NCBI RefSeq assembly: GCF_003390865.1
Contig: NZ_QMEJ01000006.1
Span: 124,001 to 188,000, forward strand
DNA length: 64,000 nucleotides
Origin: Tropicimonas sp. IMCC34011
GTDB lineage: Bacteria; Pseudomonadota; Alphaproteobacteria; Rhodobacterales; Rhodobacteraceae
Direction: 5' to 3'
The position numbers and the translations under genes were made by a program. Below the pieces are notes generated by a model that saw nothing but the letters and a program-made list of their open reading frames with translations, was not told the DNA's origin and did no database searches. Shown piece by piece: positions 50,094 to 64,000 of the stretch. Numbering within the stretch: the stretch's first letter is position 1; every line of letters begins with the position of its first letter.

Positions 50094-51389
50094 TCAAGCG
50101 GGACGCTCGCCGACAAGGAAGACCTGCACGTCCGCCACGTTCGTTCCGGTGGGCCGCTGCGGGATCAGGTCGCCCGAGGCCTCGAGGGCGTGGTAGCTGT
50201 CGCTCGTGTCGAGAAACGTCTCCGCGTCCAGCCCCGCCGCGAGGAGCCTGTCCAGCGTCCCGTCATCCACGCAGGCGCCAGCGGCGTCGGTCGGGCCGTC
50301 GCGTCCGTCCGTGCCGCCGCTGAGGAAGGCCCAGGGTCCGGCGACGCCGCGCCGCTTCGCCTCGAGTGCAACGCGGAGGGCGAGTTCCTGGTTGCGCCCG
50401 CCGAGACCGCGGCCGCGTAGTCTGACCGTCGTCTCGCCGCCGAAGATCAGCACGGGCGCGGCGGGAGAGGCCAGGTGCGCGCCCACGATGAACGCCGCCG
50501 CGTCCTCCACCGGCCCGATCAGCTCCTCCGACACGATCTCGGCCGGCCCGTCCGCTGCCTCCCGCATGGCAGAAAGGCTCATCCGGTTGCTGCCGATGAG
50601 CTGGGCCTCGCCCGCCGACGCCGGTGCAGGGCGAGTCCCGGAGCTGAGGACGTCCTTCACGGACGAGGGCACGGACGCCCAGATGCCGAGGTCCTCCAGC
50701 GTCTCGATGGCCTCGGCCGCTGTTCCGATGGGGGCGACGGTCGGACCGCTGGCCACCACGCGGAGATCGTCTCCGATGACGTCCGAGAGGATCAGGCTCC
50801 GGGTGGAGGCGGGCGCCGCCAGGGCCGCAAGCCCGCCGCCCTTGAGGCGGGAGAGGCACTGACGCACGAGATTGGTCTGCCGAATGTCCGCGCCGGATCC
50901 CAGAAGGAGGCGGTTCACCTCCGCCTTCTCGGGCAGTCCGATCCCTTCCACCGGCGCGGGGAGAAGCGCGGAGCCGCCGCCGCTGATCAGGCACAGAAGG
51001 ACGTCGTCCCGTCCGGCGCCCGCCGCGATCCGTTCGACTTCGAGCGCCGCCGTCAGCCCCGCCTCATTGGGAACGGGATGGCCCGCAAGGAAGACCTGAA
51101 CGCCAGCGATCTCGGTGTCGTTCTCGTAATTCGTGACGATCAGGCGCTCGCCCCGCGCTCCGGCCGGCAGCTTGTCCAGCGCTGCGCGCATCATCGGTCC
51201 CGCGGCCTTGCCGACGGCGATCACGTGGCAGGCGCCGCCCGCAGGCAGCTCGACCGGGCTTGCATCCAGCGCCGCGCTGACCGCGAGATCCGGCCGGGCA
51301 GCATCGATGGCGCTATCGTAGAGAGACATGGCCAGGTCGCGCAGGGCGGCACGGTCAGCACGGTCAGCACGGTCGGCAGGGTCGGTCAT
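50094..51389 (-). CDS. Glycerate 2-kinase / MOFRL family protein
   Basis: A 431-residue kinase of the GckA/TtuD family that phosphorylates glycerate to 2-phosphoglycerate. The N-terminal DUF4147 domain includes HVIAVGKAAGPMMRAALDKL and LCLISGGGSALLPAP (about 125-140). The C-terminal MOFRL domain includes LIFGGETTVRLRGRGLGGRN and FLSGGTDGRDGPTDAAGACV. The start at 51389 places MTDPADRADRADRAALRD at the N terminus, encoded by 9-bp tandem repeats. Upstream is a divergent-looking TetR gene on the same strand. Confidence 0.9.
   Translation of the reverse strand: MTDPADRADRADRAALRDLAMSLYDSAIDAARPDLAVSAALDASPVELPAGGACHVIAVGKAAGPMMRAALDKLPAGARGERLIVTNYENDTEIAGVQVFLAGHPVPNEAGLTAALEVERIAAGAGRDDVLLCLISGGGSALLPAPVEGIGLPEKAEVNRLLLGSGADIRQTNLVRQCLSRLKGGGLAALAAPASTRSLILSDVIGDDLRVVASGPTVAPIGTAAEAIETLEDLGIWASVPSSVKDVLSSGTRPAPASAGEAQLIGSNRMSLSAMREAADGPAEIVSEELIGPVEDAAAFIVGAHLASPAAPVLIFGGETTVRLRGRGLGGRNQELALRVALEAKRRGVAGPWAFLSGGTDGRDGPTDAAGACVDDGTLDRLLAAGLDAETFLDTSDSYHALEASGDLIPQRPTGTNVADVQVFLVGERPA
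51350..51385. repeat. 9-bp tandem repeat in the glycerate kinase N terminus
   Basis: Four copies of a 9-bp unit (cacggtcag, cacggtcag, cacggtcgg, cagggtcgg) encode the Ala-Asp-Arg repeats near the start of the kinase. The copies are in frame, so changes in copy number would alter the tail length without breaking the gene. Confidence 0.75.
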
Positions 51390-51537
51390 GTCGGAACTTC
51401 CATGGTAAGCGGCGGTCGGTCCAAGTTGCGCCGTCGTGCGGTGCGGTTGCAAGAACCGAGGGACGGTCGCGGGGGACGGCGAGCCGTGGTGCCTCTTGGA
51501 TCGCAGCGGCTTTCGCCGATGCGCAAGGGCGCGAATG

Positions 51538-52194
51538 TCAGACGCCCGCGCTGCCCTCGTCTTTGATGCCAGCCAGGAAGATCCGCAGGCCCAGGTCGAA
51601 CCGTGCGCGGAGCTGCGCAAGATCGGGCAGGCGGGACCGGTCGAGCAGCATCTCGACTGCGGACACCTGGACCATGTCCTTCAGGAGCGACGCGGCGGCG
51701 TGGGTATCCATCCGCGGGATCTCGCCGCGTGCGACGGCCCGGTCGAGTTCGGCACGGATCATGCGGCGGACAGCCTCGGGGCCGCGCTCCGAACATATGC
51801 GGGCGAGGAGCGATTCGGATCCCGCATTCGCGATCCCGGCGCGCAGGACCTCGAGCGGCAGGCCGGAGAGCGGGAATTCCGGGCGCGGCTCCAGCATCCT
51901 GCGCAGCCGCTCCTCTAGTGGCAGCTCCGTATCGCCGGGCGACAGGGGGCGCAGGAAGACGTTCCGGAGGCGATCGAGATAGGCCGAGATCAGCTCGTCC
52001 TGGTTGCGGAAGAGATCGTAGAGCGTGCGTTTGGACATGCCGGCACGGGCGGCGACCGCCGTCATCGTCAGCCCATCCATGCCGCTCGTCTCGAAGACCT
52101 CGCCCACGGCGCCGAGCACGATATCGCGCCTGTCCTCGGCCGACAGGACCACCGGTCGCCCACGTTTGCGGCGAATGCTGTCGTCCTCGGTCAA
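51538..52194 (-). CDS. TetR/AcrR family regulator of the RND pump
   Basis: A 218-residue TetR protein. Its HTH covers about 25-70 (AEDRRDIVLGAVGEVFETSG, MTAVAARAGMSKRTLYDLFR). The C-terminal domain is all-helical. TTG at 52194 is the preferred start because GGGGAGGAG lies just upstream; an ATG at 52254 would add 20 residues and touch the palindrome at 52255-52278. It is divergent from the RND operon and probably represses it through that palindrome. Confidence 0.86.
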   Translation of the reverse strand: MTEDDSIRRKRGRPVVLSAEDRRDIVLGAVGEVFETSGMDGLTMTAVAARAGMSKRTLYDLFRNQDELISAYLDRLRNVFLRPLSPGDTELPLEERLRRMLEPRPEFPLSGLPLEVLRAGIANAGSESLLARICSERGPEAVRRMIRAELDRAVARGEIPRMDTHAAASLLKDMVQVSAVEMLLDRSRLPDLAQLRARFDLGLRIFLAGIKDEGSAGV

Positions 52195-56964: not shown

Positions 56965-58110
56965 TCAGATCGTCGCCTCGAACAGCGCCCGCATGTTGGC
57001 CTCCGTCAGCTCCACCGGATTGCCGCCACAGGACGGATCGCGGAGGGCCATCGCGACGAGATCGTCGATGCGGTCGCCCGTCGCGCCGAGGTCGCGCAGC
57101 TTCCCCGGAATGGCAAAGCGCGCGTTGAAGTCGTCCACAAACTTGCGGAATCCGTCGAAGCCGCCGTCGATCCCGAGATATCCCGCGGCGCGGTCGAAGC
57201 GTTCGGCGATGACCGGGGCGTTCAGCTCCAGCACGGCGGGCATGCAGACGGCATTCGTCGTGCCGTGGTGGGTGCCCCAGATGGCGCCGACGGGATGGCT
57301 CATCGCATGGATCGCGCCGAGGCCCTTCTGGAAGGCCGTGGCCCCCATCGCGGCGGCGGACATCATGTTCGCCCGCGCCTCGATGTCGCCGGGCGTGTCG
57401 TAGGCCCGCGGCAGGTTCTCGATCACGAGCCGCATCCCCTCGAGCGCGATGCCATGGCTCATCGGGTGATAATGCGGGGAGGAGAAAGCCTCCACGCAAT
57501 GGGCGAAGGCGTCGAGGCCGGTCCCGGCGGTGATCGCCTTCGGCATGCCAACGGTCAGCTCGGGGTCCGCGATCACGACGGCCGGCAGGACCTTGGGGTG
57601 GAAGATGATCTTCTTCTCGTGCGTCACCGAATTGGTGATGACGCTGGCGCGGCCCACCTCCGAGCCGGTCCCGGCGGTGGTGGGAACGGCGATGTTCGGC
57701 GCGATGGCGTCCGCGTCGGCGCGGGTCCACCAGTCGCCGATATCCTCGAAATCCCAGACGGGCCGGGTCTGGCCGGCCATGAAGGCGACCATCTTGCCAA
57801 GGTCGAGGCCGGAGCCGCCACCGAAAGCGATGACGCCGTCATGTCCGCCGTCGCGGTAGGCCTTCACGCCTGCCGCGAGGTTCTTCTCGTTCGGGTTCGG
57901 ATCGACGTCCGAGAAGATCGCGCGCCCGAGGCCCGCCGTGTCGAGGATCTCCAAAGCGCGCTCGGTGATCTCGAGCCCTGCAAGCCCCTTGTCGGTGACG
58001 AGAAGCGGGCGGGTGATCCCGGCGGCCGTGCAGGCGCCCGGCAGCTCGGAGATGCGGCCGGCGCCGAAGCGGATCGAGGTGGGGTAGGACCAGTTGGCGG
58101 TAGGACTCAT
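56965..58110 (-). CDS. Iron-containing alcohol dehydrogenase
   Basis: A 381-residue group III (Fe-ADH) dehydrogenase. NAD-binding is seen in VIAFGGGSGLDLGK (about 95-108) and VPTTAGTGSEVGRASV (about 142-157). Metal-ligand region is TGLDAFAHCVEAF and LGAIHAMSHPVGAIWGTHHG (about 270-290). The last gene of the TRAP/GS-like operon; its ATG overlaps the ALDH stop by one base (TGATG). It probably oxidises a hydroxyl group of the imported substrate or its gamma-glutamyl conjugate; this is inferred from context. Confidence 0.9.
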   Translation of the reverse strand: MSPTANWSYPTSIRFGAGRISELPGACTAAGITRPLLVTDKGLAGLEITERALEILDTAGLGRAIFSDVDPNPNEKNLAAGVKAYRDGGHDGVIAFGGGSGLDLGKMVAFMAGQTRPVWDFEDIGDWWTRADADAIAPNIAVPTTAGTGSEVGRASVITNSVTHEKKIIFHPKVLPAVVIADPELTVGMPKAITAGTGLDAFAHCVEAFSSPHYHPMSHGIALEGMRLVIENLPRAYDTPGDIEARANMMSAAAMGATAFQKGLGAIHAMSHPVGAIWGTHHGTTNAVCMPAVLELNAPVIAERFDRAAGYLGIDGGFDGFRKFVDDFNARFAIPGKLRDLGATGDRIDDLVAMALRDPSCGGNPVELTEANMRALFEATI

Positions 58111-59489
58111 CAGGACGACTTCTTCAGGTGGTAGGATTTGGGGCGGGTGAGCGCCTGGATGCCGAGGATGGAGAGCCCCGCGCCGCGGCCGGTATCCTTG
58201 CAGCCGGTCCAGCAGAGGGCGGGGTCGAGATAATCGGCGCGGTTCATGAAGACGGTCCCGGTCTCGATCCGGTCGCCGAGTTCGGCGGCGCGATCGAGGT
58301 CACGGGTCCAGATGCTGGCGGTGAGGCCGAAGCGGCTGTCGTTCATCAGCCGGACCGCTTCATCGTCATCCTTGACCGGCATGATGCCGACGACGGGACC
58401 GAAGCTCTCCTCCCGCATCACGTCCATGTCGTGGGTGACGCCGGTCAGGACCTGCGGCGTGAGATAGGCGCCGCCATCGTCCGCCGGCGAGGTCTCGAGA
58501 TGCGCCGTCGCGCCCTCCGCCACCGCCTTGTCGATCTGCTCCCGCACCGTCCGGGCAAAGCGGACGTTCGCCATCGGGCCGATCGTCGTTTCGGGATCGA
58601 GCGGATCGCCGAGCTTCAGGGCCTTGGCCCAGGTCACCGCCTTCTCGACGAACGCGTCATAGAGGCTTTCGTGGACGTAGATGCGTTCGATCCCGCAGCA
58701 GCACTGGCCGGCATTGAACATCGCGCCGTCCATCAGCCCGTCCACCGCCGCATCCAGATCGGCATCCTTGCGGACATAACCCGGATCCTTGCCGCCGAGC
58801 TCGGTCGAGACGGGCGTGAAGGTCCCCGCAGCCGCCTTCTCCATCGCCTGGCCACCACCGACGGATCCGGTGAAGTTCACGAAGTCCACCGCGCGGGCGG
58901 AGATGAGGGCGCTGGTCGTATCGTGGTCCATGAAGACGTTCTGGAACACGTCCTCCGGGATGCCGGCGGAGTGGAAGGCCCGTGCCATCCGCTCCCCCAC
59001 GAGAAGCGTCTGCGTCGCATGCTTCAGAAGCACGGTGTTGCCGGCGATGAGGGCAGGCGCGACGGTATTGATCGCGGTCATCCAAGGGTAGTTCCAGGGC
59101 GCGACGACAAGGACGACGCCCCAGGGCAGGCGGCGGATGTAGCGGCGGGAGGTGTCGTCGTCCCCCACCTCGATATCCGCAAGGGCCGCCTCGGCGATGT
59201 CGGCCATGTGGCTGCCGCGCTCACGGAAGCCTCCGAACTCGCCGCCGTAGCGCACCGGGCGGCCCATCATCCGCGCCAGCTCCTCGACGATCTCGTCGTT
59301 CATCTCCCCCACGGCCTCGATCCCCGCGCGCACGAGGGCCGCGCGCTCGGCGATGGACCGTGCCGCCCACTCCGTCTGGGCGGTGCGGGCGCGGGCGGCG
59401 GCATCTCGTGCGGCCTCGGGCGAGAGTGTCTCGCGTTCGGCAAGGACCGATCCGTCGATCGGCGAGACGCATGTCAGCTTGGTCGTCAT
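58110..59489 (-). CDS. NAD-dependent aldehyde dehydrogenase
   Basis: A 459-residue ALDH. The Asn motif is VVAPWNYPWMTAINTV (about 131-146), the catalytic Glu is in VSTELGGKDPGYV (about 234-246), and the catalytic Cys is in FNAGQCCCGIERIYVH (about 262-277), with three adjacent Cys. It lies between the GS-like and Fe-ADH genes. It could oxidise the aldehyde made by the Fe-ADH. The usual PuuC/PatD role in gamma-glutamyl pathways is a family-level parallel only. Confidence 0.9.
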   Translation of the reverse strand: MTTKLTCVSPIDGSVLAERETLSPEAARDAAARARTAQTEWAARSIAERAALVRAGIEAVGEMNDEIVEELARMMGRPVRYGGEFGGFRERGSHMADIAEAALADIEVGDDDTSRRYIRRLPWGVVLVVAPWNYPWMTAINTVAPALIAGNTVLLKHATQTLLVGERMARAFHSAGIPEDVFQNVFMDHDTTSALISARAVDFVNFTGSVGGGQAMEKAAAGTFTPVSTELGGKDPGYVRKDADLDAAVDGLMDGAMFNAGQCCCGIERIYVHESLYDAFVEKAVTWAKALKLGDPLDPETTIGPMANVRFARTVREQIDKAVAEGATAHLETSPADDGGAYLTPQVLTGVTHDMDVMREESFGPVVGIMPVKDDDEAVRLMNDSRFGLTASIWTRDLDRAAELGDRIETGTVFMNRADYLDPALCWTGCKDTGRGAGLSILGIQALTRPKSYHLKKSS

Positions 59490-59492
59490 TGG

Positions 59493-60857
59493 TCAGGCTC
59501 CCTCGAACCCGCGCGCGAGCTCCCAGTCGGTCACGGCGCGGTCGTATTCTTCTTGTTCCCATGTTCCGCAGCGGACGTAGTGGTCGACCACGGCATCGCC
59601 GAAGGCTTCGCGCAACATGGTCGAGTTCCGCAAGGTCTCGATCGCATCGCGCAGGGTGCGCGGGATCTCCTCCACGTCGTCCTCCGCGTATGCGTCCCCC
59701 TCGTAGGGGCGGGAGAGCGTCAGCTTTTCCTCGATGCCGCGGATGCCGGCCGCGATCAGCGCGGCCTGCGCGAGATAGGGGTTCATGTCGGACCCGCCGG
59801 TGCGGCACTCGATCCTGATCCCCTTGGTTCCCTCGCCGCAGAGGCGGAAGGCGGCGGTGCGGTTGTCCACCGACCACACGGCCTTGGTGGGCGCGAAGGT
59901 GCCGGGGGCGAAGCGCTTGTAGCTGTTGACGTAGGGCGCGAGGAAGAAGGTGTAGTCCCGCGCGTAGGCCAGAAGCCCCGCCACGAACATGCGCATCAGC
60001 TCCGACATGCCGTGTGGGTCCGCGTCGTCGTAGAACGCCGCCTCGCCGTCTTTCCAGAGCGACAGGTGGACGTGGCTGGAGGAGCCGACCTTGTCCGGCG
60101 CCCATTTCGGCAGGAAACTCGCGGAGCAGCCGTTCTGCCACGCGATCTCCTTCGTCGCCTGCTTGGCGATGGTGTGATGGTCCGCGCAATCGAGCGCGGA
60201 GGCGTAGCGGATGTTGAGCTCCTGCTGGCCGGTCTCCGCCTCGCCCTTGGTGTTCTCAACCGGGATGCCGGCGGCCACGAGGTGGTTTCGAAGGGGCCGC
60301 ATCACGGCCTCCTCCTTGGTCGTCTGGAAGAGGTTGTAGTCCTCGTTGAAGCCGTTGAAGGGGACGAGGTTGCGATACCCGTCCTTCTGGAGCGTGCGGT
60401 AATCGCCCTCGAACAGGAAGAACTCCAGCTCCGTCGCCATCGCGGCATCGAGGCCCATTTCGGCGAGCCGCGCGACCTGCGCTTTCAGCATCTCCCGCGG
60501 GGCATGGGGGACGGGGGCGTGATCGTGGTGATCGAGCACGTCACCGAGGACCAGCGCGGTTCCCTCCAGCCAGGGCACGAGACGGAGCGTCGAGAGGTCC
60601 GGCTTCAGCACGTAGTCGCCGTATCCCGTCCGCCAACTCGTCGAGGCGTAGCCTTCCGGCGTGGACATGACGAGGTCGGTGGCGAGGAGGTAATTGCAGC
60701 AATGCGTCTCCTCGTGGGCGTGCTCGATGAAGTTCGAGACGTGGAACCGCTTGCCCATCAGGCGCCCCTGCATGTCCACCATGGCGGCGAGGACGGTGTC
60801 GATCTCCCCGGCCTCGGCCTTTTTCTTCAGGGCGTCGAACGTCAGGTTTCCGGGCAT
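59493..60857 (-). CDS. Glutamine-synthetase family gamma-glutamyl-amine ligase-like
   Basis: A 454-residue GS-fold protein, shorter and more divergent than GlnA. It retains the N-terminal MVDMQGRLMGKRF, the LELEFFLFEGDYR-like metal region (MATELEFFLFEGDY, about 139-152), the KWAPDKVGSSSHVHLSLWKD segment (about 250-270) and the NRTAAFRLCGEG Arg region (about 340). There is no adenylylation Tyr motif. This is the PuuA/IpuC type that joins glutamate to an amine. Only three bases separate it from the ALDH gene. Confidence 0.85.
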   Translation of the reverse strand: MPGNLTFDALKKKAEAGEIDTVLAAMVDMQGRLMGKRFHVSNFIEHAHEETHCCNYLLATDLVMSTPEGYASTSWRTGYGDYVLKPDLSTLRLVPWLEGTALVLGDVLDHHDHAPVPHAPREMLKAQVARLAEMGLDAAMATELEFFLFEGDYRTLQKDGYRNLVPFNGFNEDYNLFQTTKEEAVMRPLRNHLVAAGIPVENTKGEAETGQQELNIRYASALDCADHHTIAKQATKEIAWQNGCSASFLPKWAPDKVGSSSHVHLSLWKDGEAAFYDDADPHGMSELMRMFVAGLLAYARDYTFFLAPYVNSYKRFAPGTFAPTKAVWSVDNRTAAFRLCGEGTKGIRIECRTGGSDMNPYLAQAALIAAGIRGIEEKLTLSRPYEGDAYAEDDVEEIPRTLRDAIETLRNSTMLREAFGDAVVDHYVRCGTWEQEEYDRAVTDWELARGFEGA

Positions 60858-60934
60858 CTGGATCGATCCTTGGAGTGCGTGCGCGGGGGAAGGGGCGGCC
60901 CGGTTCTACCCAGGCCGCCCCCTCATGGTCTGGC

Positions 60935-61975
60935 TCAGCCGTTGGTGTAGGGGGGGCCGGCCTGGTTGATGATGTCGTTGTACTCGCGGAAGATGGAGAC
61001 GACCTTCTGGTGCACCTCGCCCTCCTGGGCGATCTCGTCCCAGAACTCCTTGGCCGCGTTCTCGACCTCGGCCCATTCCTCGGCCGGAACGGTGCGCAGC
61101 TCGAGCTTCTCGCCGGTCGCCCTCAGCCGCGCCTCGCCGCCCCAATACCACTGGTTGCGGTAGGTGTGGCCGGCCTCGATCGCGGCCATGACCAGCTCTT
61201 TGAGATGATCGGGCAGCTCCGACCAGCGCTCCTGGTTGACGAAGAAGGAGCCGATCCAAGCGCCCGAGATGTTGTTGGTCAGGAAGTAGTCGGTCACGTC
61301 CGCCCAGCCGACGGTGTAATCCTCGGTGATGCCGGACCACGCCATGCCGTCGAGCTCGCCCGTCTGCACGGCGACCTCGGCGTCCTCGTAGGGGATGTTC
61401 ACCGGTACCACGCCGAAGCGGGACAGGAAGCGTCCGGCCGTCGGGAAGGTGTAGAGCTTCAGCCCGTCCAGATCGGAGACCGACGTGATTTCCCGCGTCG
61501 TGTTGAAGTTACAGGGATCCTGTCCGGCGGCGGAGAGCCACTTCACGCCGACCTTCGAATACTCCTCGTCCCAGATCTCCTTCAGACCGTACTGGTTGAA
61601 GAGCACCGGCACGTCGAGGATGTGCTTGGTCGCGAACGGGAAGTAGCCGCCGAAGACCCGGAGCGGGGTCGGCGAGGCCATGCTGTCGTCATCGGAATGC
61701 ACGGCATCGATCGTCCCGCGCTGAAGCGCCTGGAAGAGTTCGCCCGTGGGCACGATCTGGTCGGCATAGAACAGCTCGATCTCCATCTCGCCGTTCGAGG
61801 CGGCATTGATGTAGTCGATGATGGGCTTCGTGACCTGTTCGCCGAGGGCGGCGCCGGCATAGGTCTGGAAGCGCCAGCGGATCGGCTCCTGCGCCCGCGC
61901 GATGGAGGGCGCGGCGAGGGTCGCGGGGCCGGCAACGGCCGCGGTCTGGAGGAACTTGCGTCTCGTGGTCGTCAT
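60935..61975 (-). CDS. dctP: TRAP transporter substrate-binding protein (DctP)
   Basis: A 346-residue periplasmic DctP protein. The signal is twin-arginine-like (TTTRRKFLQTAAVAGPATLA, cleavage near IARAQ). The DctP fold is visible in FQTYAGAALGEQVTKPIIDY, VPTGELFQALQRGTIDAVHS, and GLKLYTFPTAGRFLSRFGVV. It binds the operon's substrate for the DctQ/DctM membrane part. It is followed by the GS-like gene. Tat export would allow folding before secretion. Confidence 0.9.
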   Translation of the reverse strand: MTTTRRKFLQTAAVAGPATLAAPSIARAQEPIRWRFQTYAGAALGEQVTKPIIDYINAASNGEMEIELFYADQIVPTGELFQALQRGTIDAVHSDDDSMASPTPLRVFGGYFPFATKHILDVPVLFNQYGLKEIWDEEYSKVGVKWLSAAGQDPCNFNTTREITSVSDLDGLKLYTFPTAGRFLSRFGVVPVNIPYEDAEVAVQTGELDGMAWSGITEDYTVGWADVTDYFLTNNISGAWIGSFFVNQERWSELPDHLKELVMAAIEAGHTYRNQWYWGGEARLRATGEKLELRTVPAEEWAEVENAAKEFWDEIAQEGEVHQKVVSIFREYNDIINQAGPPYTNG

Positions 61976-62032
61976 CTGAAGTATCTCCTTGGTGGGGGGA
62001 AACGGCCGGTTTTCCCGGCTCTGTCTGGTCGC

Positions 62033-63361
62033 TCAGAGACCGTACACCTTGCTCGGCAGCCACAGAGCGATTTCTGGGAAGATCATCACCAGCGCGAGCG
62101 CGAGGATCATGACGAAGACGAAGGGCACGATGGAGCGGTAGATGTCCCGCAGGCCGATCTCCGGAGGGGCCATCGCGCGCATCAGGAAGAGATTGTAGCC
62201 AAAGGGCGGCGTCATGTAGGCGATCTGGCAGGTGATCGTGTAGAGCACGCCGTACCACACCAGATCGAAGCCGAGTTCGCCCACGAGCGGCACGTAGAGC
62301 GGCGCCACGATGACCAGCATCGCCGTGTCGTCGAGGAACGTGCCCATGACGAGAAAGCTGAGCTGCATCAGGATGAGGATCATCCACGGGTTCAGGCCGA
62401 GCTGCTCGGTGAACAGGGATTCGATGGCCCGCACCGCGCCCAGCCCGTCGAACACGGCGCCGAAGGCGAGGGCGGCGGTGATGATCCACATGAACATGCA
62501 GGTGATGCCGAGGGTCTGCCGGATCGTCGTCTCGAAGACGGTCCACGTCATCCGGCGCTTGAGAACCGCGGCAACGAAGGCGGCGATTGCGCCGATGGCG
62601 GAACTCTCGACGAGGCTGGTCCAGCCGTTGACGAACGGCACCATCATCACCGCGAAGATCGCGACGGGCAGGAGCCCGGCCCAGAGGAGGCGGATCTTCT
62701 CCTCCCGCGTGATCTCCGCCAGCTCCGCCTCGGTCAGCGTGGGTCCGAGCTCCGGCGTGATGCGGCAGCGGATCCAGATGTAGAGGATGAAGAGCCCCGC
62801 CATCATCAGTCCCGGAAGGGCGCCCGCGAGCCAGAGCTGACCCACCGGCTGCCGCGCGATCATCGCGTAGAGGACGAGGACGACGGATGGCGGCACGAGG
62901 ATACCCAGGGAGGAGCCTGCCTGGATCACCCCCGTGACCATCAGCTTGTCGTAGTTGCGTTTCAGGAGTTCCGGCAGGGCGATGGTCGCCCCGATGGCCA
63001 TGCCGGCCACCGACAGCCCGTTCATCGCGGAGATCAGCACCATGAGGCCGATCGTGCCCATCGCGAGGCCGCCGGGCGTCCCGCCGGTCCAGACGTGGAA
63101 CATGCGGTAGAGATCGTCGGCGATCTTCGACTCGGACAGCACGTAGCCCATGAAGATGAACATCGGCAGCGTCAGAAGCGGATACCACCGCATCACCTTG
63201 ATGATGGCGGAGAAGCCGAGGTCGTAGCCGCCCCGGTCGCCCCAGAGGAGTACCGCAGCGATGACGGCGACGAAGCCGATGGCGCCGAAGACGCGCTGCC
63301 CGGTGAAGAGCATCAGCATCATCGTGGAGAACATGAGGGCGGCGATCAGCTCATAGGGCAT
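62033..63361 (-). CDS. dctM: TRAP transporter large permease (DctM)
   Basis: A 442-residue, about 12-helix sodium-coupled permease of the DctM family. Conserved areas include LLTLPMFIFMGYVLSESKIA, NGLSVAGMAIGATIALPELL, ILVPPSVVLVLYAMIARQPV, and MGTFLDDTAMLVIVAPLYVP. Its start overlaps the last 11 bases of dctQ. With DctQ and DctP it imports an organic acid or other small solute; TRAP systems can carry amines or hydroxyectoine too. Confidence 0.92.
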   Translation of the reverse strand: MPYELIAALMFSTMMLMLFTGQRVFGAIGFVAVIAAVLLWGDRGGYDLGFSAIIKVMRWYPLLTLPMFIFMGYVLSESKIADDLYRMFHVWTGGTPGGLAMGTIGLMVLISAMNGLSVAGMAIGATIALPELLKRNYDKLMVTGVIQAGSSLGILVPPSVVLVLYAMIARQPVGQLWLAGALPGLMMAGLFILYIWIRCRITPELGPTLTEAELAEITREEKIRLLWAGLLPVAIFAVMMVPFVNGWTSLVESSAIGAIAAFVAAVLKRRMTWTVFETTIRQTLGITCMFMWIITAALAFGAVFDGLGAVRAIESLFTEQLGLNPWMILILMQLSFLVMGTFLDDTAMLVIVAPLYVPLVGELGFDLVWYGVLYTITCQIAYMTPPFGYNLFLMRAMAPPEIGLRDIYRSIVPFVFVMILALALVMIFPEIALWLPSKVYGL

Positions 63362-63893
63362 CGCCCGGCTCCTCGTCCTGGTGTCTGAGGGGGCGTCCGG
63401 TGCGCAGGAACAACACGTCCTTGGCAAGCTCGCTCAACGCCTGAAGCAGCAAAAGCGCGATGCCGACGCAGATCGTGACCTTGATCGGCCACAGATAGGG
63501 GCGCCAAGCCGAGGGGCTGCGTTCGCCGCCGTACTGGAAGGAATAGCGGGTACTGTCGATCCCGCCCCAGAGCATGATCCCGAGATAGACGATCAGGACG
63601 AGGACGGTCACGGCATCCGTCCAGGCCTTCCTGCGCGGCGAGAGCGATCCGTAGATCAGGTCCATGCGCACATGGGTGCCCATCTGCATCGCGTAGGGGC
63701 CGCCGAGGACGAAGTAGGCGATCATGATGAATTGCGCCATCTCCAGCGTCCAGAGCGACGGCATGAAGAAGACCTTGGACACGGTGGACCACATCAGCAC
63801 GCCCATCAGGGCGAAGATGCCGAACATCACCAGCCGGCCGAGGCCGTAATTCATGCGGTCGACGGCCGCGACGAAGAGACGGAGGAGGTTCAT
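63351..63893 (-). CDS. dctQ: TRAP transporter small permease (DctQ)
   Basis: A 180-residue four-helix protein of the DctQ family (VMFGIFALMGVLMWSTVSKV, MIAYFVLGGPYAMQMGTHVR, VRMDLIYGSLSPRRKAW). It is the scaffold subunit for DctM. The ATG overlaps the stop of the gene at the window edge (ATGA). Confidence 0.9.
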   Translation of the reverse strand: MNLLRLFVAAVDRMNYGLGRLVMFGIFALMGVLMWSTVSKVFFMPSLWTLEMAQFIMIAYFVLGGPYAMQMGTHVRMDLIYGSLSPRRKAWTDAVTVLVLIVYLGIMLWGGIDSTRYSFQYGGERSPSAWRPYLWPIKVTICVGIALLLLQALSELAKDVLFLRTGRPLRHQDEEPGDAL

Positions 63894-64000
63894 GCGCGGA
63901 CCTCTCCCGCACCGGTCCGGGCGAGCGGCTCCTTGAGCGTCTCCGTCAGATGCCGCGCCATCCGCTCCGCCGCCGCATCGTCCGCGATGAGGTCGTTCCG
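63890..64000 (-). CDS. C-terminal end of an upstream gene, partial
   Basis: The last 36 codons of a minus-strand gene that continues beyond the window: NDLIADDAAAERMARHLTET then LKEPLARTGAGEVRA and TGA, overlapping the dctQ ATG (ATGA). The DDAAAERMARHL segment recalls the C terminus of FCD-type GntR regulators, which often head TRAP operons, but the evidence is too short to be sure. Confidence 0.5.
   Translation of the reverse strand, partial: RNDLIADDAAAERMARHLTETLKEPLARTGAGEVRA

Follow-up and report, generated by a model that had tools for sequence, protein, structure and literature searches.

A probable ethanolamine gamma-glutamylation operon with a TRAP importer in Tropicimonas sp. IMCC34011

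Which compound is taken up, and what is it converted to, by a bacterial operon that joins a tripartite ATP-independent periplasmic (TRAP) importer to a glutamine-synthetase-fold ligase and two dehydrogenases? We address this question for a locus of the alphaproteobacterium Tropicimonas sp. IMCC34011, whose genome is 3.8 Mb. The window analysed is a stretch of 64,000 nucleotides (contig NZ_QMEJ01000006.1, positions 124,001 to 188,000 of the forward strand), and the operon lies at its far end. A first-pass annotation had proposed import of an amino-alcohol, capping with glutamate and oxidation, and had suggested that this variant may be new. The proposed logic agrees with our findings: the operon is very probably the ethanolamine catabolism operon already described in roseobacters, which imports ethanolamine, caps it with glutamate and oxidizes it to glycine. 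This assignment is based on the genes, their order, their conservation and the kinship of two products with an ethanolamine-binding protein and its adjoining ligase; the substrate, the individual enzymatic steps and the regulation would follow published work on relatives. The suggestion of novelty fails, because Phaeobacter sp. MED193 has an operon, published in 2023, with the same gene kinds, order and kind of TRAP transporter (PMC10132767), and the window operon is an instance of that pathway.

Gene content and the published counterpart

The six genes between 56965 and 63893 all lie on the minus strand, with open frames and Pfam scores far above the cut-offs. The importer is encoded by dctQ (63351..63893; small permease, equivalent to EtoV; DctQ, 79.5 bits), dctM (62033..63361; large permease, equivalent to EtoW; DctM, 226.2 bits) and dctP (60935..61975; solute-binding protein, equivalent to EtoX; DctP, 90 bits). 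The start of dctM was set at an internal ATG, the open reading frame as listed beginning at 63427. Downstream are the ligase gene (59493..60857; Gln-synt_C, 330.3 bits), whose product is likely an ethanolamine gamma-glutamylase (ETAGA); an aldehyde dehydrogenase gene (58110..59489; Aldedh, 406.5 bits; ELGGK and GQxC motifs), likely for gamma-glutamyl-aminoacetaldehyde (GAADDH); and an iron alcohol dehydrogenase gene (56965..58110; Fe-ADH, 159.7 bits; ADH_Fe_C, 137.2 bits; DAFAH, HPxGA and HHG motifs), likely for gamma-glutamylethanolamide (GETADH). The spacings in this order are -11, 57, 77, 3 and -1 bases, so that the arrangement is operon-like. Open frames, Pfam scores, spacing and recurrence in related genomes (58/80 loci, see below) thus bear out the operon that had been annotated at 56965-64000.

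Two further genes belong to the picture. Upstream of dctQ, in the same direction and overlapping it by 4 bases, is a gene for a 263-residue amidohydrolase of the FGase family (63890..64681 in window numbering, equivalent to L005:1890-2681, minus strand; PF05013, 137.2 bits), probably a gamma-glutamylglycine amidohydrolase (GGAH). Only its final 111 bases (63890..64000) are inside the window, and the remainder extends beyond the window edge. Next to it, a divergent open reading frame (approximately 64680-65651 in window numbering) encodes a regulator of RpiR type that contains HTH_6 and SIS domains.

The ethanolamine gamma-glutamylation operon of MED193 (MED193_10021 to 10056) encodes, in the order of its locus tags, RpiR, gamma-glutamylglycine amidohydrolase, EtoV, EtoW, EtoX, ethanolamine gamma-glutamylase, gamma-glutamylacetylaldehydeamide dehydrogenase and gamma-glutamylethanolamide dehydrogenase (PMC10132767). 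When MED193 was grown on phosphorylethanolamine, five of the eight proteins were increased, namely the amidohydrolase, EtoX, the ligase and both dehydrogenases (PMC10132767). Its EtoX binds ethanolamine with a Kd of 7.9 uM; binding of phosphorylethanolamine, phosphocholine or two glycerol phosphates was not seen (PMC10132767). The window operon and its upstream genes match it in all eight gene kinds, in locus-tag order and in the proposed route, and so have the gene set and order of an EtoVWX operon. No difference was seen in this comparison, which likens gene kinds and locus-tag order rather than sequences or orientations.

The binding protein, the ligase and the rival substrates

When DctP was compared with all PDB chains, the best match was Csal_0678 of Chromohalobacter salexigens (4uab/4xf5, E 4.2e-147), while the next-best TRAP chain reached only E 1.4e-18; by these E values, the window protein is close to Csal_0678 and apart from other TRAP proteins. 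C. salexigens is a gammaproteobacterium, and its Csal_0678/Csal_0679 system was reportedly described by Vetting et al. in 2015. Together with 5dm3, a structure of Csal_0679, the two Csal_0678 entries are the closest solved relatives of the window DctP and ligase. Csal_0678 is a TRAP protein without the carboxylate-binding Arg and binds ethanolamine (PMC4646407), of which Glu220 grips both the amine and the hydroxyl group (PMC12410723). The MED193 article likewise refers back to C. salexigens and to Agrobacterium, citing Vetting et al. 2015 (PMC10132767).

The ethanolamine-holding Glu220 has a counterpart in the window protein, Glu218. The assignment uses the offset of +2 from the structure match to 4uab, and the sequence alignment of DctP with the PDB protein is gap-free past residue 33. 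All 81 DctP sequences, from the window and 80 loci, have Glu at the 218 position, and all 81 have Tyr (Tyr175) where typical TRAP proteins carry the carboxylate-binding Arg. At two positions, therefore, the site resembles an ethanolamine site, with the platform Glu present and the carboxylate-binding Arg replaced. A further TRAP binding protein encoded in this genome (L005:8134-9162) carries no Glu at the 218 place, and has an Arg at the 175 place or one residue beside it, the aligner having left a one-residue gap there. Ethanolamine, which the first-pass annotation had listed among its candidates, is thus the likely substrate, as judged from the kinship of DctP with Csal_0678 and from the MED193 operon.

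A broader reading is that import and ligation extend to amino-alcohols besides ethanolamine, as a general scavenging route of marine alphaproteobacteria, and that the amidohydrolase represents a gamma-glutamyl-amino-acid hydrolase specificity within the formylglutamate amidohydrolase family; we give this a small chance. Smaller still is the chance that the chemistry is as proposed and the main natural substrate is a different small amino-alcohol, such as alaninol, serinol or aminopropanol. This finds some encouragement in the two separate depositions of Csal_0678 (4uab and 4xf5), the ligand of 4xf5 being reportedly 2-amino-1-propanol. In addition, structures with serinol and L-alaninol exist for an ethanolamine receptor whose fold is different (PMC12410723). 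However, the related Phaeobacter EtoX does bind ethanolamine, and phosphorylethanolamine induces the operon that encodes it (PMC10132767). The ethanolamine-holding Glu is invariant in the 81 sequences, although Glu alone would not discriminate between amino-alcohols. Ethanolamine is also a common piece of membrane lipids and an abundant phospholipid head group.

For the ligase, the closest PDB entry is 5dm3 (E 2.8e-204), titled Csal_0679, which adjoins Csal_0678 by locus number; in the available portion of one article (PMC5299690), Csal0679 appears only as a list entry, with the label putative glutamine synthetase. If the enzyme were a plain glutamine synthetase, the remaining genes would handle an unrelated imported acid. 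The catalytic domain and the metal-ligand-type residues of glutamine synthetase are indeed kept, and the two best PDB matches are named 'L-glutamine synthetase' and 'Glutamine synthetase'. Nevertheless, the curated NCBIfam equivalog cut-offs are missed by far, both for GlnA type I (250.9 versus 429.15 bits) and for GlnA type III (248.5 versus 469.6 bits), and a different gene of the genome (G000:C4) is its best Gln-synt_C match, with 446.1 bits against 331.1 bits for the window ligase. When the ligase is aligned with the other three glutamine-synthetase-fold proteins of the genome, Phe321 sits where the canonical-looking C4 protein has the flap Glu; all 73 ligases (that of the window and those of 72 loci whose gene is full-length) have Phe here, and five metal-ligand-type Glu residues are conserved in all of them. 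The roles of the flap Glu and of the metal-ligand Glu residues are taken over from glutamine synthetase. Since the flap Glu is replaced by Phe, the metal-ligand residues are kept and the GlnA cut-offs are missed, the enzyme is equipped for catalysis and its substrate is most likely not ammonia. DctP, for its part, lacks the acid-binding Arg and appears to belong to the ethanolamine-binding lineage, which speaks against an acid ligand. The combination of a plain glutamine synthetase and an imported acid, either of which would have undone the initial proposal, is therefore, as judged from sequence, highly improbable.

Glutamate capping by a ligase of this fold, with an aldehyde dehydrogenase, is also found in the Puu pathway for putrescine, which differs in its transporter, in having an amine oxidase for the alcohol dehydrogenase and in its hydrolase. 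That the operon is of this putrescine type, or of the isopropylamine (Ipu) type, has next to no probability: the ligase matches the gamma-glutamylputrescine synthetase (PuuA) model over nearly its full length but with 220.7 bits against a cut-off of 650, Pfam gave no amine oxidase match among the seven operon genes, the kinship of DctP points to ethanolamine, and a better Puu-type candidate lies elsewhere in the genome. The latter is a pair of further glutamine-synthetase-fold ligase genes close together (G000:C5:357846-360985), distinct from the canonical-looking C4 gene; one of them is beside a frame that by eye encodes a flavin adenine dinucleotide (FAD) oxidoreductase, and the pair is a candidate polyamine locus.

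Proposed route

In the ethanolamine route, the TRAP importer EtoVWX would take up ethanolamine, which the ligase would link to the gamma-carboxyl group of glutamate using ATP. The alcohol end would be oxidized to gamma-glutamylglycine, first by the iron alcohol dehydrogenase and next by the aldehyde dehydrogenase, and the glutamate cap would prevent formation of a free amino-aldehyde. The upstream amidohydrolase would then release glycine and glutamate, of which the latter would be recycled, and the divergent RpiR-type regulator probably controls the operon. It is the published model, together with the chemistry, that suggests which oxidation comes first, that glycine and glutamate are set free and that RpiR controls the operon. 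A glycine decarboxylase family member is present in the genome, so glycine formed by the route can be used, and it could enter the glycine cleavage system. EutB had no match in the genome in one family search, which was positive in one of 14 control genomes (Escherichia coli), so that ethanolamine ammonia-lyase is an unlikely alternative here. Both observations agree with the route without proving it.

The substrates of the iron alcohol dehydrogenase and the amidohydrolase are not told by their PDB matches. For the iron alcohol dehydrogenase, the best PDB match is an NAD-dependent methanol dehydrogenase (E 6.1e-65), and the best NCBIfam model gives 346.8 bits against a cut-off of 500; for the aldehyde dehydrogenase, no NCBIfam equivalog cut-off was reached among the 25 of 45 models listed. 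The sole PDB match of the amidohydrolase is 2odf, Atu2144 of unstated function (E 6e-58). Assignment of the latter as HutG (N-formylglutamate deformylase) was rejected with 19.2 bits against a cut-off of 278.75, only the broad FGase family being above cut-off; curated model cut-offs were failed in the same way by the plain glutamine synthetase and PuuA-type assignments of the ligase.

The window operon would share its chemistry with the GlnA4 route of Streptomyces coelicolor, in which gamma-glutamylethanolamide is formed and oxidized twice, and is hydrolysed, as proposed, by a member of the formylglutamate amidohydrolase family (PMC6529630). In the available text of that article, the Streptomyces route has a short-chain dehydrogenase where the window operon has the iron alcohol dehydrogenase, and its transporter is putative and not termed TRAP; the C. 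salexigens route is called an in silico prediction (PMC6529630). The etoX importer gene is present and expressed across the oceans, as stated in the MED193 article (PMC10132767). Ethanolamine from phosphatidylethanolamine is a marine source of carbon and nitrogen, and to the published pathway the window operon contributes a further genome and a count of loci that shows how well the layout is kept.

Conservation and variants of the layout

This count was obtained from a DctP scan of genome contigs, from which the best 80 of 343 loci were taken, a sample that leans toward close relatives; the DctP of the first locus listed, from Palleronia abyssalis, is 94% identical to that of the window. A gene was scored as present at more than 35% identity over more than half of the query. 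The order RpiR (divergent)-FGase-DctQ-DctM-DctP-ligase-aldehyde dehydrogenase-alcohol dehydrogenase is found in 58 of the 80 loci, with DctQ in 77 and DctM in 78, and this recurrence indicates that the grouping is not due to chance. In a looser search of the 22 loci off the full layout, 11 proved to be cut by contig ends (L023, L024, L030, L036, L037, L038, L055, L058, L068, L075 and L085). Of 149 genomes in the family, that of the window included, 87 give a DctP match with an E value no higher than 1e-80, and three of these matches are fragments. Of 17 DctP hits in plasmid records, nine were read, and the full set is present in three (L090, Paracoccus denitrificans; L091, Ruegeria; L097, Shinella); L094 has the transporter, ligase and both dehydrogenases without FGase or RpiR.

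Several points weigh against the assignment to ethanolamine catabolism. The other 11 of the 80 loci deviate from the complete order with no plain contig cut: in four (L016, L043, L047 and L054) neither ligase nor dehydrogenase genes lie near the transporter, the aldehyde dehydrogenase is missing from L041 and L046 and is a fragment in L027, L073 lacks the alcohol dehydrogenase, and FGase and RpiR were not found in L025, L061 and L062, nor in L016 and L043, the upstream DNA being short at L025 (1.5 kb) and L043 (1.2 kb). In five of the nine plasmid loci (L092, L093, L095, L096 and L098) the transporter stands alone within 6-7 kb, and L093 has EutBC nearby instead of the genes of the ligase route. 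The comparison of the binding site covers two positions, with the aromatic residues of the Csal_0678 site outside it, and the predicted DctP structure is poor (mean predicted local distance difference test score, pLDDT, of 50.2 from 12 sequences), so it was used for PDB entry titles and the 4uab residue offset and not for the shape of the site; the ligase model is also weak (mean pLDDT of 65.7 from 14 sequences) and was used for entry titles only. The absence of EutB stands on a single family search. Finally, the pathway figure for MED193 is headed 'Predicted', and EtoX binding is the only measured step in the available text (PMC10132767).

Two variants are seen among the loci. In roseobacter loci L041:7517-10030 and L046:11081-13710, the ligase and iron alcohol dehydrogenase are kept with no aldehyde dehydrogenase between them, and at L027:12566-12811 the aldehyde dehydrogenase is reduced to a C-terminal fragment. 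On plasmids, the DctP relatives of L092, L093, L094 and L096 are more distant (54-57% identical), and their neighbours are an FGGY-type or glycerol kinase and two FAD or pyridine-nucleotide oxidoreductases. A DeoR/GlpR regulator is found in L092-L094, with EutBC close by in L093 (Chelatococcus) and the set of ligase and two dehydrogenases in L094 (Paracoccus albus). This neighbourhood is a second context for a TRAP transporter of this DctP kind.

The surroundings of the operon were read by eye. On the 3' side of the iron alcohol dehydrogenase gene, and outside the operon, are two convergent frames resembling a resistance-nodulation-division efflux pair. Just past the window (L005:3718-14000) are a large glycosidase-like protein, a GntR-like regulator, a protein like dihydrodipicolinate synthase and two more TRAP systems, the second of which is cut by the locus end. 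Within the window, an open reading frame at 50094-51620 on the minus strand resembles, in its later part, a MOFRL-type glycerate 2-kinase.

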